A stretch of 39,782 nucleotides of DNA from Streptomyces sp. DvalAA-14 (GTDB lineage Bacteria; Actinomycetota; Actinomycetes; Streptomycetales; Streptomycetaceae): assembly GCF_900091855.1 (NCBI RefSeq), contig NZ_FMCH01000012.1, forward strand, positions 1-39,782. The letters are read 5' to 3'. Positions within the stretch are counted from its first letter, which is position 1, and each line of letters starts with the position of its first letter. The notes below the pieces were generated by a model. That model was not told the DNA's origin. It searched no databases and saw nothing but the letters and a program-made list of their open reading frames with translations. A program made the position numbers and the translations under genes. Positions 6,177-21,707 of this stretch are shown in pieces.

Positions 6177-7826
6177 TCACACGGATGCGAGGAGCACCGC
6201 CGGATTCTCCACGCAGTCGGCCACGAAGCGCAGGAATCCGCCGGCCGTGCCGCCGTCGCAAACCCGGTGGTCGAAGGTGAAGGACAGCTGCACCACCTGC
6301 CGTACCGCCAACTCGCCCTGATGCACCCACGGCTTGGGCACGATCCGGCCGATGCCGAGCATCGCCGCCTCCGGGTGGTTGATGATCGGCGTGGAGCCGT
6401 CCACCCCGAACACCCCGTAGTTGTTCAGCGTGAACGTCCCGCCGGTCAACTCTCCCGGCGTCAGCGAGCTGTCCCTGGCGGCCTGCGTCAGCCGGCCGAT
6501 CTCGGCGGACAGCCCGGCCGTGGTCCTGGCCTGCGCGTCCCGCACCACCGGCACCACCAGCCCGCGCTCGGTCTGCGCGGCGAACCCGAGGTGCACGGCG
6601 GGCAGCCGCACGATCTCGCCCCGCTCGGTGTCCACCGTGGCGTTCAGGTCCGGGTGGCGGGCCAGCGCGGCCGTGGTGATCCGGGCGAGCACCGCGAGCA
6701 CCGATATCCGCTCGGCGCCCGCGGCCTGCGCGGCGGCGTTCATCGCGGTCCGTACCGCGAGCAGTTCGGTGGCATCGGCGTCCACCCAGCAAGTGGCGTC
6801 CGGGATCTCCCGGCGGCTGCGGGTGAGCTTCGCCGCGACGGCGCCGCGTATACCGCGCAATGGAATGCGCTCGGCTCCTTCCTGATCCCGGGTCATGGAC
6901 GATCCGGCCGAAACCGGAGCCGCGACCGGGACCGGCGTCGGGCCAGGCGTCGGGTCCTGGGCGTGGGCTCGGGCGTTGGCGTTGGGGTAGCTCCGGTTCA
7001 GATCCCGGTCCGGTGCCTGGGCCGAGGCCGTCGCGCCGTCCGTGCCCGGTGCCGCCGCCCGCTCGACATCCGCCCGCAGGATCAACCCGTCCGGGCCACT
7101 CCCCGCCACCGTCCTCAGGTCGAGACCTCGCTCGCGGGCCAACCGCCGGACCAGCGGCGACACCACGGCCACCGGCCCGCCGTCCGCCAGGTGGCCCGCC
7201 CGGGCATCCGCCCGGCCGTTGTCCTGGCCCTGTGCGGGGCCCGCCGACCGGTCGTCCGCCCGGTGGCCGTTCACCGCAGGCGCGGTCCGGGGCGGCAGCG
7301 CATCGTGGGGCGGCACGGATGCCGCCGCACCACCGTGCCCCGTGGCCGCGCCGGTGTGCATGGTCCCTCGGCCTATCGTCCGCACCCGATTGCGCCGTCG
7401 GGCCGCCGGACCCGTGCCATAGCCCACCAGGACGTTGCCCGAGCCTTCCTCCGCCGCCGTGCCGGCCCCGCCGTCATCGGGCCCATTGCCACCGGGCCCA
7501 GTGCCACCGGGTCCACTGCCACCGGGCCCGGGAGCGGCCGACTTCTCGTCGGCCGGCGCGCCGCCCTCGGTGCCGTCCATCGAGCCGACCGCCACCGTCA
7601 CCAGCGGCCGGCCCACCGCGAGGGTCTCGCCCTCCTCCCCGAAGCGGGCGGTGACCACACCCCCGTAGGGACAGGGCACCTCCACCACGGCCTTGGCGGT
7701 CTCCACTTCCACCACCGGCTGGTCGACGGCCACCACCTCGCCGATCTCCACCAGCCAGCGCACGATCTCCGCTTCGGTCAGTCCCTCGCCCAGATCGGGC
7801 AGGGTGAATTCCTTGACGACCGCCAT
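6177..7826 (-). CDS. bkdC: 2-oxoacid dehydrogenase E2, dihydrolipoamide acyltransferase (BkdC-like)
   Basis: E2 is the core acyltransferase of a 2-oxoacid dehydrogenase complex: it moves the acyl group from E1 via its swinging lipoyl arm to CoA. The 549-residue protein has one lipoyl domain (1-80) with the lipoylated Lys45 in VETAKAVVEV, then a long Ala/Pro/Gly linker that includes the actinobacterial phrase VLVGYGTGPAARRR. A peripheral subunit-binding domain follows (SPLVRRLARERGLDL), then a second linker and the catalytic domain ending with FDHRVCDGG, which holds the HxxxDG active site. The ATG at 7826 overlaps the E1beta stop by one base (TAATG), so it is preferred over upstream starts. 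The E3 (lipoamide dehydrogenase) is not in the window. Branched-chain 2-oxoacids are the default substrate guess, but the promoter evidence suggests aromatic 2-oxoacids (see findings). Confidence 0.9.
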   Translation of the reverse strand: MAVVKEFTLPDLGEGLTEAEIVRWLVEIGEVVAVDQPVVEVETAKAVVEVPCPYGGVVTARFGEEGETLAVGRPLVTVAVGSMDGTEGGAPADEKSAAPGPGGSGPGGTGPGGNGPDDGGAGTAAEEGSGNVLVGYGTGPAARRRNRVRTIGRGTMHTGAATGHGGAAASVPPHDALPPRTAPAVNGHRADDRSAGPAQGQDNGRADARAGHLADGGPVAVVSPLVRRLARERGLDLRTVAGSGPDGLILRADVERAAAPGTDGATASAQAPDRDLNRSYPNANARAHAQDPTPGPTPVPVAAPVSAGSSMTRDQEGAERIPLRGIRGAVAAKLTRSRREIPDATCWVDADATELLAVRTAMNAAAQAAGAERISVLAVLARITTAALARHPDLNATVDTERGEIVRLPAVHLGFAAQTERGLVVPVVRDAQARTTAGLSAEIGRLTQAARDSSLTPGELTGGTFTLNNYGVFGVDGSTPIINHPEAAMLGIGRIVPKPWVHQGELAVRQVVQLSFTFDHRVCDGGTAGGFLRFVADCVENPAVLLASV

Positions 7827-8857
7827 TACCCCTCCTCCCACTGCAGGCGCCCCACGGCGTCGAGAATCCGGTCGACGCCGGGCAGGTGGTGCCGTTCCAG
7901 CATCGGCGGCGGGTAGGGGATGTCGAATCCGGCCACCCGCAGCACCGGCGCCTCCAGGTAGTGGAAGCACCGTTCGGTGATCCGGGCGGCTATCTCCGCG
8001 CCCGCGCCGCCGAAGCCGGCCGACTCGTGCACCACGACCGCCCGCCCCGTGCCGCGGACCGCCGCCGCCACCGTCTCCTCGTCGAAGGGCACCAGGCTGC
8101 GCAGGTCCACCACGCCGAGGTCCCAGCCCTCCTCCTTTGCCGCCTCGGCCGCCTCCAGGCAGACCGGCAGCGACGGGCCGTAGGTGACCAGGGTGGCGGT
8201 GCGGCCGGCCCGGCGGATCACCGCCCGGCCGATCGGCTCGACCTCGGACGGTGCCTGCGGGGACCAGTCCGCCTTCGACCAGTACAGCCGCTTCGGCTCC
8301 AGGAAGACCACCGGGTCGTTGGAGGCGATGGCGGCCCTCAGCAGGCCGTAGGCGTCCGCGACCGTGGCCGGGGTGACCACATGCAGGCCGGGGGTGTGGG
8401 CGTAGTACGCCTCCGAGGAGTCGCTGTGGTGCTCCACCCCGCCGATGCCGCCGCCGTAGGGGATCCGGATGGTGATGGGCAGCGGCAGGGCGCCCCGTGT
8501 GCGGTTCCGCATCCGGGCGACATGGCTGACCAGCTGCTCGAAGGACGGGTAGGCGAAAGCGTCGAACTGCATCTCGACCACCGGCCGCAGTCCGTACATC
8601 GCCATGCCGACCGCGGTACCGAGGATGCCGGCCTCCGCGAGGGGGGTGTCCGTGCAGCGCTCCTCGCCGAACTCCCTGGCGAGGCCGTCGGTGATCCGGA
8701 AGACGCCGCCGAGGGCGCCGACGTCCTCCCCCAGCACGTGGACCGCGGGATCGGCGCTCAGGGAGTCGCGCAGCGCCTGGTTGAGTGCCTGCGCCATCGT
8801 TGCGGGCTTGCGGGCGGGCGCCTGGGTGCGGTCGGCGGCCCGGGTGGCGGTGGTCAT
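7826..8857 (-). CDS. bkdB: 2-oxoacid dehydrogenase E1 beta subunit (BkdB-like)
   Basis: This 343-residue protein is the beta subunit of a heterotetrameric thiamine diphosphate-dependent E1 that decarboxylates a 2-oxoacid. Family patterns are clear: MAQALNQALRD at the N-terminus, the cofactor-contacting LGEDVGALGGVFR, DTPLAEAGILGTAVGMAMYGLRP, and the transketolase C-terminal domain with VVDLRSLVPFDEETV. The phrase GGGIGGVEHHSDSSEAYYAHTPGLHVV matches the pyruvate/branched-chain E1beta group. The ATG at 8857 is chosen because it overlaps the E1alpha stop (ATGA). This adds about 20 residues (TTATRAADRTQAP...) before the conserved MAQAL, where a second start could be used. It is the middle gene of the E1alpha-E1beta-E2 operon. 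Confidence 0.92.
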   Translation of the reverse strand: MTTATRAADRTQAPARKPATMAQALNQALRDSLSADPAVHVLGEDVGALGGVFRITDGLAREFGEERCTDTPLAEAGILGTAVGMAMYGLRPVVEMQFDAFAYPSFEQLVSHVARMRNRTRGALPLPITIRIPYGGGIGGVEHHSDSSEAYYAHTPGLHVVTPATVADAYGLLRAAIASNDPVVFLEPKRLYWSKADWSPQAPSEVEPIGRAVIRRAGRTATLVTYGPSLPVCLEAAEAAKEEGWDLGVVDLRSLVPFDEETVAAAVRGTGRAVVVHESAGFGGAGAEIAARITERCFHYLEAPVLRVAGFDIPYPPPMLERHHLPGVDRILDAVGRLQWEEG

Positions 8858-9954
8858 GACTGCTGCTCCGCTTCCAGCTCGGCCCGCAGTTGGGCCTCTT
8901 GTTGCCGCAGTTGCTGCGTCGGCTCGGCGTAGACGTGCGCGAACAGCTCCATCGGATCGAGCGCCGGGTCGGCGTTCATCCGCGCGCGCAGGGCGGCGGC
9001 CGTCGTCTCGGCCTCGTCCGCCGCGCTCCGCCGCAGCGCGTCGTCCAGCAGACCGCGATCGGTCAGCTCGCGTTCCAGCAGGGTGATCGGGTCGTGCTCG
9101 CGCCAAGCGGCGACTTCGCTGTCGTCGCGGTAGCGGGTGGCGTCGTCGGCGTTGGTGTGGGCGTCGATGCGGTAGGTCACCGCCTCCACCAGGGTGGGCC
9201 CGGCGCCGCCGCGGGCCCGGTCGACGGCCTCGGTCAGCACCTCGTGCACGGCTGCCACGTCATTGCCGTCCACGAGCCGCCCGGGCATGCCGTAGCCGAC
9301 CGCCTTGTGGGCGAAGGTCGGGGCCGCGGTCTGCTTGGCGAGCGGGACGGAGATGGCGAAGCCGTTGTTCTGGACCAGGAAGACCACCGGCGCCCGCCAC
9401 ACGGCCGCGAAATTGAGCGCCTCGTGGAAGTCGCCCTCGCTGGTGCCGCCGTCGCCGACCAGGGCGAGCGCCACCACGTCGTCACCGCTGAGCCGGGCGG
9501 CGTGGGCGAGTCCCACGGCGTGCGGCAGCTGGGTGGCCAGCGGTGTGCTCAGCGGGGCCACTCGCTCGGCGCGGGGGTCGTAACCGGTATGCCAGTCGCC
9601 GCGGAGCAAGGTGAGCGCGGCGACCGGGTCCACACCCCGGGCGATCACGGCGAGGGTGTCCCGATAGCTGGGGAAGAGCCAGTCCTGGGGCTGCAAGGAC
9701 AGGGCGGCGGCCACCTCGCACGCCTCCTGGCCGGTGCTGGACGGGTAGACGGCGAGGCGTCCCTGCTTGGTCAGCGCGGTCGCCTGCTGGTTGAAGCGCC
9801 GGCCGCGGACGAGCTGTCCGTACAGCGCGCGCAGCAGCGCGGGATCGAGCCGGGCGGCATCGGGGGTGCCCAGCAGCCGATACGGCTCCGGGTCGGGCAG
9901 CAGCGGCGCGGCATCGGTGCGGTGGCGCCAAGCGGGGGTGTCCAGCACGGTCAT
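8854..9954 (-). CDS. bkdA: 2-oxoacid dehydrogenase E1 alpha subunit (BkdA-like)
   Basis: The 366-residue alpha subunit binds thiamine diphosphate and catalyses decarboxylation of the 2-oxoacid together with E1beta. The TPP-binding motif runs from GDGG (167-170) through TSEGDFHEALNFAAVW to QNN (195-197). The phosphorylation-loop-equivalent region reads YRIDAHTNADDATRYRDDSEV, typical of bacterial branched-chain/pyruvate-type E1alpha. The C-terminal 20 residues (QQLRQQEAQLRAELEAEQQ) look like a short coiled coil. The ATG at 9954 has an excellent ribosome-binding site (GAGGAGGT) 6-8 bp upstream, which decides the start over the upstream in-frame ATG at 10020. It is first in the operon and is preceded by a PaaR-like operator at 10020-10033. 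An Lrp/AsnC gene diverges from it, as for known Streptomyces bkd operons. Confidence 0.93.
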   Translation of the reverse strand: MTVLDTPAWRHRTDAAPLLPDPEPYRLLGTPDAARLDPALLRALYGQLVRGRRFNQQATALTKQGRLAVYPSSTGQEACEVAAALSLQPQDWLFPSYRDTLAVIARGVDPVAALTLLRGDWHTGYDPRAERVAPLSTPLATQLPHAVGLAHAARLSGDDVVALALVGDGGTSEGDFHEALNFAAVWRAPVVFLVQNNGFAISVPLAKQTAAPTFAHKAVGYGMPGRLVDGNDVAAVHEVLTEAVDRARGGAGPTLVEAVTYRIDAHTNADDATRYRDDSEVAAWREHDPITLLERELTDRGLLDDALRRSAADEAETTAAALRARMNADPALDPMELFAHVYAEPTQQLRQQEAQLRAELEAEQQS

Positions 9955-10019: not shown

Positions 10020-10033
10020 ACCGATTGTTCGGT
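10020..10033. promoter_or_regulatory. PaaR-type operator upstream of the 2-oxoacid dehydrogenase operon
   Basis: ACCG-ATTGTT-CGGT is a 14-bp inverted repeat located 66 bp upstream of the E1alpha start. It has the same ACCG-N6-CGGT form as the sites at 12993-13006 and 17929-17942, which sit in paa promoters. The Corynebacterium PaaR (TetR) consensus core is ACCGNNCGNNCGGT; this copy has TG instead of the central CG. Confidence 0.6.
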
Positions 10034-10065
10034 CGCCGGAGGCATTTTGGCTACGGGGTGGTTTC

Positions 10066-10077
10066 GCCTGTGGACAA
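10066..10077 (-). promoter_or_regulatory. TTGTCCACAGGC element upstream of the dehydrogenase operon
   Basis: Read on the minus strand this is TTGTCCACAGGC. It starts 44 bp before the operator and points toward the dehydrogenase genes. The first nine bases match the Streptomyces DnaA-box consensus (TTGTCCACA). The first six could instead act as a -35 element with a -10 near 10046-10054. The same 12-mer, with one allowed change, recurs at 12959 and 17869. Confidence 0.4.
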
Positions 10078-10135
10078 ACGGTTCTGCACAGCCTGAGATG
10101 GAGCCAGTACGTCCATGGTATGGAGCTTCCGGGGG

Positions 10136-10618
10136 ATGGCGAGCGAACAGATGGCCGATGAGGAACCAACGGTCCGACCTCTGGACCCGATCGACCGCAC
10201 GATCCTGCGGCTGCTGCAAGAGGACGGACGCGCCTCGATACGCTCCGTGGCCGAGCGTGTACACGTGTCCCGGGCCAACGCCTACGCGCGGATCAATCGG
10301 CTGATCGAAGACGGAGTGATCCGAGGTTTCACCGCCCGCGTCGACCACGAGCGAGCCGGGCAAGGCGCGTCCGCGTACATCACGCTCAAGATCGTCCAGA
10401 ACTCGTGGCGGACCGTCCGGGAAAAACTTGTCACCCTTCCGGGTGTAGTCCATATTGCCCTGGTAAGCGGTGATTTTGACGTTTTGTTGCTGGTGCACAC
10501 CGTCGACAACCGCAGTCTGCGCGAGCTGGTCCTGACCCGTCTGCAGGCCATCGAGGAGGTGCTCAGCAGCCGCACGCTGCTGGTCTTCGAGGAGACCGAT
10601 CCGGTCATCGGCGACTGA
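10136..10618 (+). CDS. bkdR: Lrp/AsnC-family regulator, BkdR-like
   Basis: A 160-residue Lrp/AsnC regulator, divergent from the dehydrogenase operon, where Streptomyces bkd clusters are known to carry bkdR. The N-terminal winged helix reads LDPIDRTILRLLQEDGRASIRSVAERVHVSRANAYARINRLIEDGVI. The C-terminal RAM-type alpha/beta domain reads YITLKIVQNSW ... LPGVVHIALVSGDFDVLLLVHTVDNRSLRELVLTRL, a fold that usually binds amino acids and forms octamers. The ATG at 10136 is chosen for the GGAG 10 bp upstream; ATGs at 10115 and 10151 are alternatives. The 181-bp region shared with E1alpha holds one PaaR-like operator and one TTGTCCACAGGC element. It probably controls the dehydrogenase operon in response to an amino acid or its keto acid (inference). 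Confidence 0.88.
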   Translation: MASEQMADEEPTVRPLDPIDRTILRLLQEDGRASIRSVAERVHVSRANAYARINRLIEDGVIRGFTARVDHERAGQGASAYITLKIVQNSWRTVREKLVTLPGVVHIALVSGDFDVLLLVHTVDNRSLRELVLTRLQAIEEVLSSRTLLVFEETDPVIGD

Positions 10619-10762: not shown

Positions 10763-11350
10763 CTACGTGCGCAGCCCGTCGAACGCCAGCCGCACCACCG
10801 CGTCGCCCACCTGCGCGCGGTCCGCCGCGCTCTTCCCTTCGGGCCGGTACCACTCGACGACCGAGTTGATCATCCCGAACAGCAGCCTCGTCGCGAGCCT
10901 CGCCTCGACGTCCGCGCGCAGATCGCCCTCGGCCACCGCCGCCTTCAGCAGGGCGGAAACCCGCTGATCGAACTCCCTGCGCCGCTCCATCGCCCACCGC
11001 TCGGTCTCCGTGTTGCCCCGCACGCGCAGCAGCAGGGTGACGTACGGGAGTTCCTCCATCAGGACCTCGGTGGTCCGCCGGGTGACGTGCTCCAGCCGCT
11101 CGACCGCGCGCCCGTCCAGCGACGCCGGTTCCTCCAGGATGGCAAAGAGGCCCTCCAGGGCCCGCCCCACCGCCCGGTTGAGCAGTTCCTCCTTGCCCCG
11201 CACGTGGTGGTAGATGGAGGACTTGGAGATGCCCGCCGCGTGGGAGAGGTGCTCCATGGAGGTGCCGTCGTAGCCGCGTTCGTTGAAGACCTCGACCGCG
11301 ACGGCGAGCAGCGAATCCGGCGTATAGGTGTCGCGCTTGGACATGGTCAT
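10763..11350 (-). CDS. paaR: TetR/AcrR-family regulator, probable PaaR
   Basis: A 195-residue TetR-type repressor. The N-terminal helix-turn-helix is typical: LLAVAVEVFNERGYDGTSMEHLSHAAGISKSSIYHHVRGKEELLNRAV. The helical C-terminal half (ITxx-like region ending in VVRLAFDGLRT) would bind the effector. The ATG at 11350 overlaps the stop of the 3-hydroxyacyl-CoA dehydrogenase gene (ATGA), so the two are translationally coupled and this start is favoured over upstream ones. Its place in the phenylacetate locus, and ACCG-N6-CGGT sites before paaA, between paaH and paaN and before the dehydrogenase operon, make it the candidate repressor, by analogy with Corynebacterium PaaR, which is released by phenylacetyl-CoA. 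Ligand and targets here are inferred. It would be autoregulated through the operator at 12993-13006. Confidence 0.8.
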   Translation of the reverse strand: MTMSKRDTYTPDSLLAVAVEVFNERGYDGTSMEHLSHAAGISKSSIYHHVRGKEELLNRAVGRALEGLFAILEEPASLDGRAVERLEHVTRRTTEVLMEELPYVTLLLRVRGNTETERWAMERRREFDQRVSALLKAAVAEGDLRADVEARLATRLLFGMINSVVEWYRPEGKSAADRAQVGDAVVRLAFDGLRT

Positions 11351-12897
11351 GAGGAGACCACACCTTCCGCCGCGGCCGCGCGCCGTCTCAATTCCGGGCA
11401 GGGCGCGTAGCGGCCGGTCGGATACCAGGAGTGCAGGCCGTCGAGGAGATCGCGCACCCACGGCGCGGTGAGACGCTCGCCCCACTCCAGCGGGCCCAGC
11501 GGGTAGTTCACTCCCAGGCGCATCGCGGTGTCCACGTCGTGGGCGGAGGCCACTTCTCTGGCCACCGCGTCGACGGCGAAGTCCACCAGCATCGCCACGG
11601 TCCGCGCCACGACCATGCCCGGCACGTCGCCGATGACGCTGACCGCCTTGCCCATGGCCTGGAAGAACCCAACGGCCTGCTCCAAGCCATCCTGGTGCAC
11701 CCCCGCGGACGGCGCGATCCCGATCCGGGTGGCGGCCCGGTAGTCCAGCGCCAGATCGAAGCAGACGGCCGCTTCACCCGGCAGCCGTCCGTCCGCCAGC
11801 CGGAGGGGCGTTCCCGAGGGCAGGACGACGACGCCGCGGCGCGGCCGTCCGTCGCCCCGCGGACGCCCCGCCTGCCCGCTCGCCGGATACGGCTCTTCGC
11901 GCACCTCGATCCCGGATTCCTGTGCGAGCGCGACCAGTTCGCGGGCCGGTCCCAGGTCGCCGCGAACGGTGACGAAGGGGGGTGCGGCGGCGGGCTCGGC
12001 GGTCCGGGGTCCGGACAGGGCTGCCGTGTCCGCGTCGTAGGCGAACCAGCCGCGCCCGGACTTGCGGCCGAGCCGTCCCGACTCGACCAGGCGGCGCTGC
12101 GCGAGCGAGGGGGTGAACTTGGGGTCGTGGTTGAAGGCGTCCCACACCGATCGGGTAACCGCCTCGTTGACGTCCTGGCCGATCAGATCCATCAGCGCGA
12201 AGGGGCCCATGGCGAAGCCCCCGCACTCCCGCAGCAGCGCGTCGACTGTGGCCGGGTCGGCGGCCCGCTCCTCATGGATCCGCAATGCCTCGGCGTAGAA
12301 GGGGCGTGCGACGCGGTTGACCAGGAAGCCCGGGGTGTCGGTGCACCGCACCGGGGCCTTTCCCCAGGCCGCGGCGGTGTCGTAGGCCGTGGTGACAGCC
12401 GCCGGGTCACTGGCCGCTCCGGCCACGACCTCGACCAGGGGCAGCACGGGGGCCGGGTTGAAGAAGTGGAGGCCGACCAGACGCCCGGGCAGGCGCAAGG
12501 CGCCCGCGACCGCGGTGACGGACAGCGAGGAGGTGTTGGTGGCCAGCAGGCACTCGTCGCCGACGACCGCCTCCAGTTCCGCGAGCAACCGCCGCTTGGC
12601 GGCGAGGTCCTCGATCACCGCCTCCACCACCAGCCTGGCATCGGACAGTTCCTCGATGTCCCCGGCCGCGGCCAGCCGTGCCAGAGCCGCCCCGCGGTCC
12701 GCGGCACTGAGCCGCTCTTTGGCCACGAGCCGGTCGAGGCGTCCCGCGAGGGTCTCCACGGCCGCCCGCGCCCGGCCGGGCACGGCGTCGTGGAGCTTCA
12801 CGCGGTGGCCGGCCAGCAGCGCGACCTGTGCGATTCCCTGGCCCATGGTGCCCGCGCCGACGACGGCCACGGTGCTGCTGCGGTCAAGTGCGCTCAC
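11347..12897 (-). CDS. paaH: 3-hydroxyacyl-CoA dehydrogenase, PaaH-type
   Basis: A 516-residue NAD-dependent 3-hydroxyacyl-CoA dehydrogenase of the phenylacetate-pathway type, predicted to oxidise 3-hydroxyadipyl-CoA to 3-oxoadipyl-CoA. The Rossmann motif GAGTMGQG is at 14-21. Other family marks are ATNTSSLSVTAVA, GLHFFNPAPVLPLVEVV (catalytic-His region), DTPGFLVNRVARPFYAEAL, and a C-terminal duplicated 3HCDH domain with PGMVVARTVAMLVDFAVDAV and GVNYPLGPLEWGE. The length and duplicated C-terminal domain match PaaH (about 475-510 residues). A linker at about 325-375 (AAPPFVTVRGD ... GRPRGDGRPRRG) separates the parts. The GTG at 12897 (N-terminus VSALDRSST) is chosen over an ATG at 12966 because GGAG lies 12 bp upstream and the ATG version adds 23 unlikely residues. 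It is divergent from paaN and coupled to the TetR gene. Confidence 0.9.
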   Translation of the reverse strand: MSALDRSSTVAVVGAGTMGQGIAQVALLAGHRVKLHDAVPGRARAAVETLAGRLDRLVAKERLSAADRGAALARLAAAGDIEELSDARLVVEAVIEDLAAKRRLLAELEAVVGDECLLATNTSSLSVTAVAGALRLPGRLVGLHFFNPAPVLPLVEVVAGAASDPAAVTTAYDTAAAWGKAPVRCTDTPGFLVNRVARPFYAEALRIHEERAADPATVDALLRECGGFAMGPFALMDLIGQDVNEAVTRSVWDAFNHDPKFTPSLAQRRLVESGRLGRKSGRGWFAYDADTAALSGPRTAEPAAAPPFVTVRGDLGPARELVALAQESGIEVREEPYPASGQAGRPRGDGRPRRGVVVLPSGTPLRLADGRLPGEAAVCFDLALDYRAATRIGIAPSAGVHQDGLEQAVGFFQAMGKAVSVIGDVPGMVVARTVAMLVDFAVDAVAREVASAHDVDTAMRLGVNYPLGPLEWGERLTAPWVRDLLDGLHSWYPTGRYAPCPELRRRAAAAEGVVSS

Positions 12898-12958
12898 GGT
12901 TGTCCACGACTCCCTGCCGGGTTGTCCCCGAATCGTCCGTTGTGCCGATGTCCCGAAG

Positions 12959-12970
12959 TTGTCCACAGGC
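12959..12970 (+). promoter_or_regulatory. TTGTCCACAGGC element upstream of paaN
   Basis: TTGTCCACAGGC reads toward paaN and begins 34 bp before the operator at 12993. It contains a perfect Streptomyces-type DnaA box (TTGTCCACA). A related TTGTCCAC lies at about 12900. Role unknown. Confidence 0.4.
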
Positions 12971-12984
12971 CGGCGACGTTCTCC

Positions 12985-13012
12985 TTGTCCCGACCGAACA
13001 TTCGGTTAATCT
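12985..13012 (+). promoter_or_regulatory. paaN: Likely paaN promoter
   Basis: TTGTCC (12985-12990) and TAATCT (13007-13012) are spaced by 16 bp and fit -35 and -10 boxes 47 bp upstream of paaN. The 14-bp operator fills the spacer, so a bound repressor would block RNA polymerase directly. Inferred from sequence only. Confidence 0.5.
12993..13006. promoter_or_regulatory. PaaR-type operator between paaH and paaN
   Basis: ACCG-AACATT-CGGT has perfect ACCGAA/TTCGGT arms around CA. It lies in the divergent promoter region of paaH-tetR and paaN, inside the likely paaN -35/-10 spacer. It matches the form of the sites at 10020-10033 and 17929-17942. Confidence 0.7.
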
Positions 13013-13058: not shown

Positions 13059-14735
13059 ATGTCCGCCGATCTCTCCACCGCGGTCCTGATCGAACGCCAT
13101 CGCGCCACCCTCGACAAGGCGCTGGAAGCCATCCGGACCCGCGAATACTGGTCGCCCTACCCCGAGCACCTCAAGGCCTACCCGGACGCCGAAGCGGGCA
13201 AGGCGGCTTTTGACGCGCTGCTCGGCCGCCCCTTCGAGCTGGACCAGCCCGGCACCGACGACTGGACCGGCGGCGAGCGGTCGCCCTACGGGGTGGAGCT
13301 GGGCGTGCGGTATCCGCACCCCGATCCCGACCGGCTGCTGCCCGCGATGCGCGCCGCCGTGCCCGCCTGGCGGGACGCCGGCCCGGAGGCCCGCGCCCTG
13401 GTCTGCCTGGAGATCCTGTCCCGGATCAACGCCCGGAGCCACGAATTCGCCCACGCGGTGATGCACACTTCCGGCCAGGCGTTCACCATGGCCTTCCAGG
13501 CGGGCGGGCCGCACGCGCAGGACCGCGGCCTGGAGGCGGTGACCTACGCGTACGCCGAGCAGATCCGTGTCCCGGAGACCGCCGAGTGGATCAAGCCGCA
13601 GGGCAAGCGCGATCCGGTCGCTCTGCGCAAGTCCTTCACCGCGGTGCCGCGCGGGGTCGGCCTGGTGATCGGCTGCAACACCTTCCCGACCTGGAACGGT
13701 TATCCGGGGCTCTTCGCCTCCCTCGCCACCGGGAACGCGGTGCTGGTCAAACCGCACCCGCAGGCCGTGCTGCCGCTCGCGCTCACCGTGGCCGTCGCCC
13801 GTGAGGTGCTGGCGGAGGCCGGCTTCCCGCCCGAGCTGGTGTGCCTGGCCGCCGAGCGCCCCGCCGAGGGCCTCGCCAAGACTCTCGCGGTCCGGCCGGA
13901 GATCCGCGTCATCGACTACACCGGCTCCACCGGCTTCGGGGACTGGCTGGAGGCCAACGCCCTGCAGGCCCAGGTCTTCACCGAGAAGGCGGGCGTCAAC
14001 ACCGTCGTCATCGACTCCACCGACGACTACCGCGGCATGCTCGCCAATCTGGCCTTCTCCCTGTCGCTGTACAGCGGCCAGATGTGCACCACCCCGCAGA
14101 ATCTGCTGATCCCGCGGGACGGCATCGAGACCGACGCCGGACCGAAGGCGTACGAAGAGGTCGTCGCCGACCTCGCCGCGGCGGTTCAGGGGCTGCTGGG
14201 GGACGACACGCGGGCCAACGCCCTGCTCGGCGCCCTGGTGAGCCCGGAGGTCAAAGCGCGGCTCGAGGCCGCCTCCGGAGTCGGCGAGGTCGCCCTCGCC
14301 TCCCGCACCCTGAAGCACCCCGACTACCCGCACGCGGTGGTCCGCACCCCGGCCATGATCACGCTCGACACGGCCAAGCCGGACGCCGAGAGCACCTTCA
14401 TGTCGGAGTGCTTCGGGCCGGTCTCCTTCGCGGTGGCGGTCGATTCGACCGCCGGCGCGGTGGAGCTGCTGCGGCGCACCATCCGCGACAAGGGCGCCAT
14501 GACGGTCAGCGGTTACACCACCTCTCCGGAAGTCGAGCGGCAGTTGGAGGAGGCGTGCTGGGAGGAATGCGCGCAGCTCTCGCTGAATCTCACCGGCGGG
14601 GTCTACGTCAACCAGACCGCGGCTTTCTCCGACTTCCACGGTTCGGGCGGTAATCCGGCGGCCAACGCGGCGTTGAGCGACGGCGCCTTCGTCGCGAGCC
14701 GCTTCCGGATGGTGGAGGTGCGGCGGCCGGCCTGA
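13059..14735 (+). CDS. paaN: Phenylacetic acid degradation protein PaaN (aldehyde dehydrogenase-like)
   Basis: A 558-residue member of the PaaN family, aldehyde dehydrogenase-like proteins of phenylacetate clusters. They are thought to act on a ring-opened semialdehyde, the step done by the ALDH domain of PaaZ in E. coli. Marks include GLVIGCNTFPTWNGYPGLFASLATGNAVLVKPHP (cofactor-binding region), YTGSTGFGDWLEANA, FTEKAGVNTVVID and YSGQMCTTPQN, where the Cys of QMCTTPQ aligns with the ALDH catalytic Cys region. The N-terminal 100 residues (YWSPYPEHLKAYPDAEAGKAAF) are specific to PaaN. There is no MaoC-type hydratase domain. The ATG at 13059 follows GAGGAG by 8 bp, so the open frame further upstream is not used. 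The operator and promoter at 12985-13012 lie just upstream. Confidence 0.9.
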   Translation: MSADLSTAVLIERHRATLDKALEAIRTREYWSPYPEHLKAYPDAEAGKAAFDALLGRPFELDQPGTDDWTGGERSPYGVELGVRYPHPDPDRLLPAMRAAVPAWRDAGPEARALVCLEILSRINARSHEFAHAVMHTSGQAFTMAFQAGGPHAQDRGLEAVTYAYAEQIRVPETAEWIKPQGKRDPVALRKSFTAVPRGVGLVIGCNTFPTWNGYPGLFASLATGNAVLVKPHPQAVLPLALTVAVAREVLAEAGFPPELVCLAAERPAEGLAKTLAVRPEIRVIDYTGSTGFGDWLEANALQAQVFTEKAGVNTVVIDSTDDYRGMLANLAFSLSLYSGQMCTTPQNLLIPRDGIETDAGPKAYEEVVADLAAAVQGLLGDDTRANALLGALVSPEVKARLEAASGVGEVALASRTLKHPDYPHAVVRTPAMITLDTAKPDAESTFMSECFGPVSFAVAVDSTAGAVELLRRTIRDKGAMTVSGYTTSPEVERQLEEACWEECAQLSLNLTGGVYVNQTAAFSDFHGSGGNPAANAALSDGAFVASRFRMVEVRRPA

Positions 14736-17978: not shown

Positions 17979-18953
17979 ATGACGACCACGGCGCAGCCCC
18001 CGGCGACCGCAGCGGCGGCGGACCAGGACGCGATGACAGCGGCCTTCGACGACGCGGTGGCCGCCGATCTCAGGATCGAGCCCCGCGACTGGATGCCGGA
18101 CGCGTATCGCGCCACGCTCATCCGCCAGATGGCCCAGCACGCCCACTCGGAGATCATCGGCATGCAGCCGGAGGCCAACTGGATCAGCCGGGCGCCCTCA
18201 CTGCGCCGCAAGGCGATCTTGATGGCCAAGGTGCAGGACGAGGCGGGACACGGCCTCTACCTCTACAGCGCCGCCGAAACACTGGGGGTGAGCCGGGACG
18301 AGTTGCTGGACAAGCTGCACGCCGGCCGCCAGCGGTACTCCTCGATCTTCAACTACCCGACCCTCACCTGGGCGGACGTCGGCGCAGTCGGCTGGCTGGT
18401 GGACGGCGCCGCCATCACCAACCAGGTCCCGCTGTGCCGCTGTTCCTACGGGCCGTACGCACGCGCCATGGTGCGGATCTGCAAGGAGGAGTCCTTCCAC
18501 CAGCGGCAGGGATACGAACTGCTGCTCGCGCTGAGCCGGGGCACCCCCGCCCAGCACGCCATGGCCCAGGACGCGGTGAACCGCTGGTGGTGGCCCTCGC
18601 TGATGATGTTCGGCCCGCCGGACGACGAGTCGGCGCACTCCGAGCAGTCAATGACCTGGAAGATCAAGCGCCACTCCAACGACGAGTTGCGGCAGCGCTT
18701 CGTGGACATATGCGTCCCGCAGGCCGAGGTGCTGGGCCTGACCCTGCCCGACCCGGACCTGCGGTGGAACGAGGCACGGGGCGCCCACGACTACGGGGCC
18801 ATCGACTGGAGCGAGTTCCAGGAAGTGCTGCGCGGCAACGGCCCCTGCAACGACCAGCGGCTGGAGCGCCGTCGAACCGCACACGACGAAGGCGCCTGGG
18901 TACGGGACGCGGGCGTCGCCTACGCGGCCAAGCACAAGGAGGCCCAGCGATGA
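17979..18953 (+). CDS. paaA: Phenylacetyl-CoA 1,2-epoxidase subunit PaaA (catalytic diiron subunit)
   Basis: PaaA is the catalytic diiron subunit of the multicomponent monooxygenase that converts phenylacetyl-CoA to its ring-1,2-epoxide with O2 and electrons from PaaE. The 324-residue protein has the ExxH metal-ligand motifs DEAGHGLY (E88, H91) and KEESFHQRQ (E171, H174) in a ferritin-like helical fold. Strong family phrases include [34 protein letters not shown] and [19 protein letters not shown]. The ATG at 17979 follows GAGAGGAAGG at a good distance. It is the first of five tightly packed genes and ends by overlapping paaB (ATGA). Confidence 0.97.
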
Positions 18954-19258
18954 CCGGGGGACAGGACGAGCCGAGCGGCACCGAGTGGCCGCTGTGGGAA
19001 GTCTTCGTCCGCAGTCGGCGCGGGCTCAGCCACAGCCACGCGGGCAGTCTGCACGCACCCGACGCCGAGATGGCGCTGCGCAATGCCCGGGACCTGTACA
19101 CCCGGCGATCCGAGGGCGTCTCGATCTGGGTGGTGCCGTCCACAGCGGTGACGGCCTCCTCCCCCGACGAGAAGGACCCGTTCTTCGAGTCGTCGTCCGA
19201 CAAGCCCTACCGGCACCCGACCTTTTACGAGATCCCCGAAGGGGTGAAGCACCTGTGA
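18950..19258 (+). CDS. paaB: Phenylacetyl-CoA epoxidase subunit PaaB
   Basis: A 102-residue protein with the PaaB pattern [38 protein letters not shown] and IWVVPSTAV, ending in [17 protein letters not shown]. PaaB is a small subunit needed for epoxidase activity, thought to bridge PaaA-PaaC heterodimers. Length is normal (about 95-105 residues). The start overlaps the paaA stop and the end overlaps paaC (GTGA), which indicates stoichiometric, coupled translation. Confidence 0.96.
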
Positions 19259-20049
19259 CCGCCACCGACACAACCGCGCCGACCCCTGGGACGCCCAGCA
19301 CCCAGGCGGTCGACTCCTCGCCGACCCCCGCGCTGACGGGGCCGGCCGCTGCCGCCGCGCGCGCCCTCGGCGACGACGCCCTGGTGCTCGCCCAGCGACT
19401 GGGGGAGTGGGCCGGAAACGCGCCTGTGCTGGAGGAGGACGTCGCCCTCACCAACATCGCCCTCGATCTGCTCGGCCAGGCCCGCACCCTGCTGTCGCTG
19501 ACCGGTGACGAGGACGAGCTGGCTTTCCTCCGCGAGGAGCACGAGTTCCGCAACGTGCAGCTGGTGGAGCGGCCCAATGGGGACTTCGCCGAGACCATCG
19601 CCCGCCAGCTGTACTTCTCCGTCTACCAGGAGCTGCTCTACGCCGGGCTGGCCTCATCCGGCGGCGAGCTGGCGCCCCTGGCGGCGAAGGCCGTCAAGGA
19701 GGTCGCCTACCACCGGGACCACGCCGAGCAGTGGACGCTGCGACTCGGTGACGGAACCGAGGAGAGTCACCGCCGGATGCAGGGGGCCCTGGACGGGCTG
19801 TGGCGCTACACCGGCGAGCTGTTCAACCCGCTGGACGGCCTCGCCATCGACCCGCCCGCGCTGCGCGAGCGCTGGCTGGAGCACGTGACGGCGACGGTCG
19901 GGCGGGCGACCCTGACGATGCCGCAGGGCCGCGACCGCACACCGTGGTCGGCCGGGGCGGGCCGGCAGGGGGTCCACACGGAGCCGTTCGGGCGGCTGCT
20001 TGCCGAGATGCAGTATCTGCACCGTGCCCACCCGGGGGCGTCATGGTGA
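19255..20049 (+). CDS. paaC: Phenylacetyl-CoA epoxidase structural subunit PaaC
   Basis: PaaC is the non-catalytic ferritin-like partner of PaaA that shapes the epoxidase core. The 264-residue protein has the family phrases LVLAQRLGEWAGNAPVLEEDVALTNIALDLLGQAR, EHEFRNVQLVERPNGDFAETIARQLYFS and KAVKEVAYHRDHAEQWTLRLGDGTEESHRRM. The first 45 residues (TDTTAPTPGTPSTQAVDSSPTPALTGP) are a Thr/Pro/Ala-rich extension. The GTG at 19255 overlaps the paaB stop (GTGA), which supports this start; an internal start near the conserved region is possible. It overlaps paaD by 7 bp. Confidence 0.95.
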   Translation: MTATDTTAPTPGTPSTQAVDSSPTPALTGPAAAAARALGDDALVLAQRLGEWAGNAPVLEEDVALTNIALDLLGQARTLLSLTGDEDELAFLREEHEFRNVQLVERPNGDFAETIARQLYFSVYQELLYAGLASSGGELAPLAAKAVKEVAYHRDHAEQWTLRLGDGTEESHRRMQGALDGLWRYTGELFNPLDGLAIDPPALRERWLEHVTATVGRATLTMPQGRDRTPWSAGAGRQGVHTEPFGRLLAEMQYLHRAHPGASW

Positions 20050-20579
20050 CCGCCGAAGCGACCGCACTGGAGCAGGAGCTGCTGCGGCTGGCCGGCGCCG
20101 TGCCCGACCCCGAGCTGCCGGTGATCTCGCTGGCCGAGCTCGGCGTGCTGCGCGGTCTGCGGGTCATCGGCCCCGGGCGGGTGACCGTGGAGCTGACCCC
20201 GACCTGGACAGCCTGCCCGGCCATCGACACCATGGCCGCGGACGTGACCGATGTACTGAGGGCGCACGGCGTGTCCGAGGTGGAAGTGCGCACGGTGCTC
20301 GCCCCGGCCTGGTCCACCGACGCGATCAGCCCGGAGGGCCGCCGCAAGCTCGCGGAAGCCGGAGTGGCACCGCCCCGCCACCTCCCGGCCGGCCCGGCCT
20401 CCCCCGACGGACCTGCCGGCGCCGGCCCCGGCCCGGTGGCCGTCGACCTGGCGATCCGCTGCCCGCACTGCGGCTCGACGGACACCCGGCTGCTGAGCCG
20501 CTTCTCCTCGACCGCCTGCAAGGCACTGCGGCGCTGCGAGTCCTGCCGCGAGCCGTTCGACCACTTCAAGGAGGTGTGA
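20043..20579 (+). CDS. paaD: PaaD, MIP18/DUF59-type maturation factor of the epoxidase
   Basis: PaaD belongs to the MIP18 (DUF59) family and is thought to help assemble iron centres of the phenylacetyl-CoA epoxidase. The 178-residue protein has the DUF59 domain (about 10-90) with AVPDPELPVISLAELGVLRGL and VELTPTWTACPAIDTMAADV, where the conserved Cys sits in TACP. A Pro/Gly/Ala linker follows (about 115-135), then a C-terminal zinc ribbon CPHC ... CESC and the family ending FDHFKEV. The ATG at 20043 overlaps the end of paaC. Its stop abuts the paaE start (TGAATG). Confidence 0.94.
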   Translation: MVTAEATALEQELLRLAGAVPDPELPVISLAELGVLRGLRVIGPGRVTVELTPTWTACPAIDTMAADVTDVLRAHGVSEVEVRTVLAPAWSTDAISPEGRRKLAEAGVAPPRHLPAGPASPDGPAGAGPGPVAVDLAIRCPHCGSTDTRLLSRFSSTACKALRRCESCREPFDHFKEV

Positions 20580-21707
20580 ATGTTCCATCCGCTCCGGGTG
20601 GCGGAGGTCCGCCCCCTCACGGACGACTCGGTGACCATCTCCTTCGAGGTCCCCGAGGAGCTGCGCGCCGCGTATCGCTACCGGCCGGGTCAGCACATCG
20701 CCATCCGCCGACAGGTGGCGGGCGCCGAAGTCAGGCGGACGTACTCGCTGTGCGACCCGGTGCCGGCCGACCTGCTGCCGGCCGGGCCGGAGGCAGTGCC
20801 GGGCTCCGGCCCCGGCGACGGGCCGGACTCCGGGCCGCGGCGGCTGCGGGTCGGGGTGCGCCTGGTGGAGGACGGTGAGTTCTCCACCTACGCGCTCAAG
20901 GAACTGCTCACCGGGCACGTGCTGGACGTGATGACCCCGGCAGGACGGTTCGTTCTGGAGCCACGGCCCGGGCGGTTCGCCGCGGTGGTCGGCGGCAGCG
21001 GCATCACCCCGGTGCTGTCACAGATCGGCACGGTACTGGCCCGGGAGCCGAGAGCAACCTTCTGCCTGATCCGCAGTGACCGCACGGCCGCGTCCACGAT
21101 GTTCCTGGAGGAGGTCGCGGACCTGAAGGACCGCTGGCCGGACCGCTTCCACCTGGTGTCCGCACTGTCCCGGGAAGAGCAGCAGGCGGGGCTGCCGTCG
21201 GGCCGCCTCGACGCCGAGCGGCTCACCGCGCTGCTTCCGGCGCTGCTCCCGGTGCTCGCGGTGGACGGTTGGTATCTGTGCGGGCCACTGGGCCTGGTCA
21301 GCGCTGCCGAGCACGCGCTGCGCACCTTGGGCGTACCCCGCTCCCGGGTGCATCAGGAGATCTTCCATGTGGACGAGGTGGCGGCCGAAGCCCCGGCGGG
21401 ACCGACGGCGGCGGCGGGGCCGATGTCCGGCGGCGCCACCGTACGGGCGACGCTTGACGGCCGCGGCGGCAGCTGGCCGTCGGCGGGCGAGGAATCCGTC
21501 CTGGAGACGGTGCTGCGCAACCGGTCGGACGCCCCGTACGCCTGCAAGGGCGGAGTGTGCGGAACCTGCCGGGCGAAGCTGGTGTCGGGCGAGGTGCGGA
21601 TGGACCGCAACTTCGCGCTGGAGCCGGAGGAGACGGAGGCCGGCTATGTGCTGGCGTGCCAGTCGCACCCGCTGACGCCGGTCGTCGAGGTCGACTTCGA
21701 CGCCTGA
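20580..21707 (+). CDS. paaE: PaaE, NADPH-dependent reductase of the phenylacetyl-CoA epoxidase
   Basis: PaaE passes electrons from NADPH through FAD and a [2Fe-2S] cluster to the PaaA diiron site. The 375-residue protein has three parts: an FAD-binding domain with YRPGQHI and RRTYSLCDPV (about 35-65), an NAD(P)-binding domain with VVGGSGITPVLSQIG (about 138-152) and LCGPLGLVSAAEHAL, and a plant-type ferredoxin domain with cysteines in CKGGVCGTCRAK (from about 321) and LACQSHP. A Gly/Pro-rich insert of about 20 residues (about 67-85, AGPEAVPGSGPGDGPDSGP) interrupts the FAD domain between conserved strands. The ATG directly follows the paaD stop with AAGGAGGTG as ribosome-binding site. Last gene of the operon. 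Confidence 0.95.
   Translation: MFHPLRVAEVRPLTDDSVTISFEVPEELRAAYRYRPGQHIAIRRQVAGAEVRRTYSLCDPVPADLLPAGPEAVPGSGPGDGPDSGPRRLRVGVRLVEDGEFSTYALKELLTGHVLDVMTPAGRFVLEPRPGRFAAVVGGSGITPVLSQIGTVLAREPRATFCLIRSDRTAASTMFLEEVADLKDRWPDRFHLVSALSREEQQAGLPSGRLDAERLTALLPALLPVLAVDGWYLCGPLGLVSAAEHALRTLGVPRSRVHQEIFHVDEVAAEAPAGPTAAAGPMSGGATVRATLDGRGGSWPSAGEESVLETVLRNRSDAPYACKGGVCGTCRAKLVSGEVRMDRNFALEPEETEAGYVLACQSHPLTPVVEVDFDA

Follow-up and report, generated by a model that had tools for sequence, protein, structure and literature searches.

Introduction

The bkdFGH genes supply branched fatty acids and the starter units of avermectin, and a 1995 paper by Denoya reportedly describes a Streptomyces avermitilis bkdF mutant that lost its branched-chain activity and its growth on isoleucine, leucine and valine. 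Published passages on these genes assign the supply of isobutyrate and 2-methylbutyrate to bkdFGH (PMC6662830), name bkdR (SCO3832) as the regulator of the branched-chain complex (PMC8176718), and describe Bkd mutants used for doramectin, with bkdFGH tied to branched-chain starter supply. The genes of the phenylacetate (Paa) pathway are under a different regulator, PaaR. According to the literature, ACCGACCGGTCGGTT is a validated PaaR operator of Burkholderia cenocepacia and phenylacetyl-coenzyme A (phenylacetyl-CoA) releases PaaR in B. cenocepacia and Thermus thermophilus (PMC9493321); AACGA-N4-TCGGT is tabulated as a putative PaaR site of Streptomyces pristinaespiralis (PMC10933834), and PaaR is noted to be conserved alongside the paa genes in Streptomyces and related genera (PMC13186573). 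Here we analyzed a 39,782-nucleotide stretch of DNA from Streptomyces sp. DvalAA-14 (contig NZ_FMCH01000012.1, positions 1 to 39,782; called the window below), in which an E1alpha-E1beta-E2 operon matching bkdFGH, the regulatory gene bkdR and a set of paa genes share a PaaR-type operator.

All parts of this locus belong to known families. The operon of the window matches the published bkdFGH, an assignment that comes from the bkdR literature: as in S. avermitilis and S. coelicolor, an E1alpha-E1beta-E2 operon stands beside a divergent Lrp regulator, although neither model species appears by name among the best 80 named loci described below. A preliminary description of this DNA, made from the letters alone, had suggested that the Lrp/AsnC gene could report amino-acid or keto-acid levels. 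Neither a new kind of enzyme nor a new sensor is supported, since the operon is bkdFGH, which the available literature treats as a branched-chain dehydrogenase, and the Lrp/AsnC gene reads as bkdR, its named regulator. The difference lies in the operator, which is seen here, whereas the literature passages on BkdFGH/BkdR of the two model species do not mention PaaR control. We found no report of PaaR control of bkdFGH by title or start of abstract among the listed matches in the open-licence literature, and an earlier report is possible. Conversely, the PaaR regulon as described in parts of the literature for S. pristinaespiralis, Corynebacterium glutamicum, B. cenocepacia and T. thermophilus resembles that of the window in having a TetR repressor with the paa genes and a palindromic operator, and differs in that a 2-oxoacid dehydrogenase operon also carries the site here.

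Two further systems resemble the chemistry that we consider. PglB/PglC, from the phenylglycine synthesis of S. pristinaespiralis, have been suggested to turn phenylpyruvate into phenylacetyl-CoA (PMC7089894); they share with the present locus a pyruvate dehydrogenase-like E1 pair and the suggested substrate, but they belong to antibiotic biosynthesis, the pgl genes listed in the source passages include no E2, and the likeness is one of description only. In Phaeobacter inhibens, an unrelated bacterium, a direct route from phenylpyruvate to phenylacetyl-CoA likewise skips free phenylacetate, by an enzyme that the passages do not name (PMC7497051). Our favored reading, which we consider somewhat probable, is that BkdFGH, a branched-chain dehydrogenase, has been captured by PaaR and makes phenylacetyl-CoA as well. 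From the observed genes, sites and conservation of the sites, together with PaaR of other species, we infer the regulatory half of this reading; gene neighborhood is what suggests the use of phenylpyruvate by BkdFGH.

A PaaR-type Operator before bkdF and the paa Genes

The palindrome ACCGAnnnnTCGGT occurs three times in the window (Table 1), and these are the only places at which ACCGANYGNTCGGT is found without a mismatch. The wider form ACCGN6CGGT has 9 places in the window against a mean of 2.0 in shuffled sequence, and 0 of 100 shuffles reach 9. The arms of the window operator, ACCGA and TCGGT, are the same as those of the validated B. cenocepacia PaaR site. The source genome holds five sites of the operator form. 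Four are placed at bkd, paa or paaK, and no bkd or paa gene adjoins the remaining one (C510:599).

Conservation among named genomes was judged on 80 loci, the best of 587 that were confirmed, all 80 from Streptomyces or Actinacidiphila, with the window E1alpha 78 to 88% identical to theirs. E1alpha, E1beta and E2 are present in 80/80 loci and the order bkdFGH-bkdR is conserved; the Lrp gene (bkdR) is found in 78 and the TetR gene in 76, the other 2 and 4 loci, respectively, ending early. The exact ACCGAACAATCGGT lies in the bkdF-bkdR gap of all 78 loci that hold this gap (L051 and L104 end early). The operator is also present in the paaH-paaN gap (76/76) and before paaA in each of the 39 loci with paaA, 38 times inside the 200 bases scanned and once, in L029, just beyond. 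As controls, none of 78 length-matched coding stretches exceeds 7 of the 10 arm letters, and among 1560 simple shuffles 13 reach 9 and none reaches 10. The preliminary description had claimed an operator common to the bkd and paa genes, and this was borne out: the exact palindrome stands at all three places in the window and is conserved in the family. At the level of sequence, bkdFGH is genuinely linked to the Paa pathway.

A candidate bkdF promoter was read by eye (Table 1). In an alignment of 78 loci anchored on the operator a promoter-like block is conserved, with the operator just behind it, and this block would read as a promoter towards bkdF. A scan with the sigma-70 consensus found no promoter at bkdF, the palindrome lies between two divergent genes and PaaR binding is a prediction; these points would fit a palindrome that serves bkdR or another TetR protein instead of PaaR control of bkdFGH. 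We regard this as very unlikely, because the exact site in seven near-complete genomes (below) lies almost only at paa promoters and bkdF and because the conserved block appears to face bkdF.

Conservation and Regulon Size in the Family

The family sample consisted of 101 Streptomycetaceae genomes. In this sample paaA exceeds the cut-off in 96 genomes and paaK in 78, an E1alpha match at E 1e-100 or better is found in 94, and at least one exact bkd-type operator in 93. Coordinates place the operator at most 500 base pairs (bp) before E1alpha in 88 genomes; reading of the loci adds G023, G074 and G078, giving an operator before bkdF in 91 of the 95 genomes with the gene, a count that leaves out G034 with its contig-edge fragment only. 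Both paaA and bkdF are absent in 4/101 genomes from three genera (Fisher p 6e-6, a statistic that ignores kinship).

In the seven near-complete genomes there are 23 exact ACCGAWYRWTCGGT sites, and 21 of them are at bkdF, paaH/paaN, paaA or paaK. For 17 of the 23 the surrounding locus was inspected, and every one of these stands at bkd or paa genes; coordinates put another four immediately ahead of bkdF, paaA or paaK, and the other two (G009, G060) have no bkd or paa neighbor. Because exact sites lie almost only at bkd and paa promoters, about four promoters carry the operator, that of bkdFGH among them. G027 has a 9-of-10 form of the operator before paaA. The operator 14-mer is also present in G004, with no bkdF or paa genes nearby; there, one exact and several one-off operator-like sequences fall within 1.7 kb (G004:C3, L139 7603-9256), perhaps a degenerate repeat.

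In a tree of E1alpha plus E1beta, the copies of G020, G031, G038 and G089 form a separate clade and the copies of a family that we call f18 nest among the Streptomycetaceae; with this topology one recruitment by the paa locus is indistinguishable from several. A plasmid search returned 703 matching records; identity was 60-80% in 9 of them and under 60% in all others. As a side observation, bkdF of G023 (contig C8, L145 8487-9070) is interrupted by an in-frame insertion of about 580 bases that leaves the reading frame open from end to end (597 amino acids, no stops), and an N-terminal PaaK fragment lies near this bkdF at 11141-11431.

Genes of the Window

Features of the window are collected in Table 1. 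Profile searches found E1alpha, E1beta and E2 domains together in a single operon, confirming the families named in the preliminary description, and the stop of bkdF overlaps the start of the E1beta gene. E1alpha matches TIGR03181, a model named for pyruvate dehydrogenase, at 422.7 bits (cut-off 411.35), and NCBIfam E2 models match bkdH, all below their cut-offs. The source organism of the solved structure 1um9 is presumably T. thermophilus. In the bkdH product a long linker (about residues 78-222, window about 7160-7590) separates the lipoyl domain from the E3-binding domain, and tblastn matches to other loci frequently break there. For the TetR gene the name PaaR is proposed from context and operator. 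The true start of the paaH-like gene is probably some 20 codons further in than called, and paaB and paaD were assigned from place and open frame alone.

Table 1. Operators, candidate promoter and genes of the bkd-paa locus in the window.
Feature	Position	Strand	Evidence
bkdH, E2 dihydrolipoamide acyltransferase	6177..7826	-	lipoyl, E3-binding and acyltransferase domains; PF00198 (254.9 bits), PF00364, PF02817
bkdG, E1 beta subunit	7826..8857	-	PF02779/PF02780; nearest solved chain 1um9_B, "2-oxo acid dehydrogenase beta subunit"
bkdF, E1 alpha subunit	8854..9954	-	PF00676; nearest solved chains 1um9_A, 1w85_A
PaaR-type operator before bkdF (bkdF/bkdR gap)	10020..10033		exact match
Candidate bkdF promoter	10048..10077	-	TTGTCC 10072-10077, 18 nucleotides, TAGCCA 10048-10053; read by eye
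bkdR, Lrp/AsnC regulator	10115..10618	+	PF13404, PF01037
TetR-family regulator, proposed PaaR	10763..11350	-	PF00440, PF17932
paaH-like 3-hydroxyacyl-CoA dehydrogenase	11347..12966	-	NF006124 592.4 over 508; TIGR02279 PaaH 565.3 under 669.4
PaaR-type operator between paaH-paaR and paaN	12993..13006		exact match
paaN-like aldehyde dehydrogenase	13059..14735	+	PF00171
PaaR-type operator before paaA	17929..17942		exact match
paaA, phenylacetyl-CoA epoxidase subunit	17979..18953	+	TIGR02156 514.1 bits over cut-off 280
paaB, paaC, paaD, paaE	18950..21707	+	paaC TIGR02158 252.7 over 133.35; paaE TIGR02160 400.9, just under 420.8

The Ligase Gene paaK and a Second bkd Set

The preliminary description had also argued that the absence of a phenylacetate-CoA ligase gene (paaK) speaks for a phenylpyruvate route. 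The absence holds within the window but not for the genome, which has paaK at C212:2100-3356 (675.8 bits over the cut-off of 646.3) with an exact operator before it at C212:1984-1997; the argument from a missing ligase therefore fails and was rejected. Elsewhere in the family, 11 of the 96 paaA-bearing genomes have no recognizable paaK (G014, G027, G036, G041, G043, G047, G057, G084, G087, G093 and G098). This count leaves out G023 (fragment) and G020 and G038 (weak hits), treats G031, G074, G079 and G100, with paaK just under the cut-off, as paaK-bearing, and scores at most 15 best candidates per genome, among which a true paaK should rank first. Genomes of 2-3 contigs are among these 11. The operator stands before bkdF in 11/11 paaK-less genomes but so it does in 91/95 overall, and an enrichment of the operator in paaK-less genomes was rejected as a candidate signal. 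Beside the paa and bkd genes of the paaK-less G027 (stretches L149 and L150) none of the 3 frames Pfam-scanned out of 19 is a ligase, and paaK has no match there.

A search for a second bkd operon, proposed in the preliminary description, found one on contig C150 (6.8 kb), with matches of 40% (E1alpha), 58% (E1beta) and 55% (start of E2, over the first 74 residues) and no operator in a scan of the contig. We take this second set to be bkdABC of Streptomyces. The existence of an operator-free second set would allow a strict division of labor in which BkdFGH would chiefly oxidize phenylpyruvate, with the bkdABC-like set as the branched-chain enzyme, and PglB/PglC, as described in part of the S. 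pristinaespiralis literature, would be a proposed precedent. It is quite unlikely in our judgment, for the available literature ties bkdFGH to branched-chain starter supply and is silent on bkdABC, bkdR stands beside bkdFGH, and paaK is present. A purely aryl-specific enzyme is unlikely too, because bkdFGH, to which the operon corresponds, is known in S. avermitilis as its branched-chain dehydrogenase.

Links to Phenylpyruvate in Other Genomes

Within the window no gene for making phenylpyruvate was found linked to the complex. Neighboring genes in other genomes point to phenylpyruvate as a BkdFGH substrate, an indirect support that comes from neighborhoods, not activities. On contig C44 of G089 an aminotransferase gene is followed on the same strand by a PaaN_2-like gene, bkdFGH, paaN, paaH and paaABCDE, with the Lrp gene opposite (the order covers the identified genes, and one long frame also lies opposite). 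The best solved match of this aminotransferase is 4r2n, "Putative phenylalanine aminotransferase" (E 3.7e-108; next best 1.1e-40), and NCBIfam places it in the histidinol-phosphate transaminase subfamily. The bkdFGH genes of G031 lie about 100 bp before paaN and are co-directional with paaN, a thiolase gene, paaH and paaABC. In family f18, of which nine genomes matched and seven loci were fetched, a prephenate dehydratase gene directly follows bkdFGH on the same strand in 6/7 loci (L201-L206, six genomes), and the seventh, G205, does not have this arrangement.

In G096 a bkdFGH paralogue is oriented divergently to an AfsA-like gene and to the gene of a prephenate dehydratase that has no ACT match; a wider spread of this type of paralogue was rejected, with only 1/393 genomes matching at E 1e-160. 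The prephenate dehydratase, the AfsA-type hotdog protein and the paralogue stand together on contig C126 (L230 5377-10593), a grouping that might make up a small gene cluster whose product is phenylacetyl-derived and butyrolactone-like. Further bkdFGH paralogues adjoin very large open frames in L229, L231 and L232 (1568, 2798 and 2657 amino acids), where they perhaps supply starter units to assembly lines.

Exceptions and Relatives outside the Family

Several observations weigh against a BkdFGH captured by PaaR and forming phenylacetyl-CoA. The operator before bkdF is missing in 4/95 family genomes (G010, G020, G031, G038). Three of them (G020, G031, G038) have paa genes and bkdFGH, yet no operator before bkdF, the paaA of G038 being on another contig; G010, which has no paaA, retains bkdFGH and bkdR with neither the operator nor paa genes next to them. 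The second bkdFGH copy of G089, the one on contig C44, also has no operator before bkdF (best 7 of 10), and exact sites are absent before paaK in G100 and before both paaA and paaK in G060. Outside the family, where 40 genomes matched and 20 loci were read (E1alpha 59 to 71%), the operator is found before bkdF in 0/20 loci (best 8 of 10 arm letters) and a PaaA or TetR gene in 0/20. No bypass of the ligase is needed in the source genome, because paaK is present with the operator, and this genome has 4-hydroxyphenylpyruvate dioxygenase, another aromatic route. The prephenate dehydratases of f18 may be ordinary pheA, and 3/4 of those scanned have an ACT match, one over the cut-off. Lastly, Val69 of E1alpha was rejected as a sign of an aryl pocket: the position (Phe66 of the T. 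thermophilus enzyme), which we assume to line the substrate pocket, carries phenylalanine in five aligned solved E1alpha chains, and Val is also found in 18/20 of the relatives not linked to paa. The outside-family loci further show an Lrp gene in 11/20 and weak PaaN-like matches of 25 and 29% in 2/20.

These relatives bear on another explanation, that of co-regulation without aryl activity. BkdFGH would act only on branched-chain (and small) 2-oxoacids, and PaaR would contribute a signal that amino acids are being consumed, or capture of the operator would have followed from the chance position of paaR next to bkdR, and the site would then have been kept. Consistent with it, 20/20 outside-family relatives have no paa link, G010 retains bkdFGH without paaA, bkdR adjoins bkdFGH, and the literature connects bkdFGH both with the supply of isobutyrate and 2-methylbutyrate (PMC6662830) and with the Bkd mutants used for doramectin. 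This explanation is possible, if on the doubtful side: the operator is exact in the 78/78 named loci with the gap (best 80 of 587), and the separate links to a phenylalanine aminotransferase-like gene and to prephenate dehydratase would each need an extra explanation.

Proposed Model and Its Meaning

In the favored reading of a captured dehydrogenase with a second product, PaaR would repress bkdFGH from the site at 10020-10033, which directly follows the candidate bkdF promoter, and would also repress paaH-paaR, paaN, paaABCDE and paaK. Phenylacetyl-CoA would lift the repression of bkdFGH together with that of the paa genes and paaK. BkdFGH would keep its branched-chain role under BkdR and, once released, would also decarboxylate phenylpyruvate to phenylacetyl-CoA, a second entry into the Paa pathway beside PaaK, which makes phenylacetyl-CoA from phenylacetate. 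As BkdFGH and PaaK would both make phenylacetyl-CoA, both would be inducer producers under the repressor. A role of BkdFGH further down the Paa pathway is unlikely, because to our knowledge no 2-oxoacid arises after phenylacetyl-CoA.

A broader proposal is offered tentatively, as something we hold to be possible but would not bet on. Actinomycete BkdF-type complexes as a class may be dual branched-chain/aryl-pyruvate dehydrogenases and, in the Streptomycetaceae, together with PaaR, they may lead from phenylalanine to phenylacetyl-CoA by a route that amplifies itself and needs no ligase; this would be the sole such supply in the 11/96 paaA-bearing members without a recognizable paaK.

If PaaR control and phenylacetyl-CoA formation are both true, the breakdown of aromatic and of branched-chain amino acids would depend on a common enzyme and a common switch in a major family of antibiotic producers. 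It would also explain how the paaK-less members could feed paaABCDE, and it would provide a simple handle on phenylacetyl-CoA supply for products such as pristinamycin I or tropolones.

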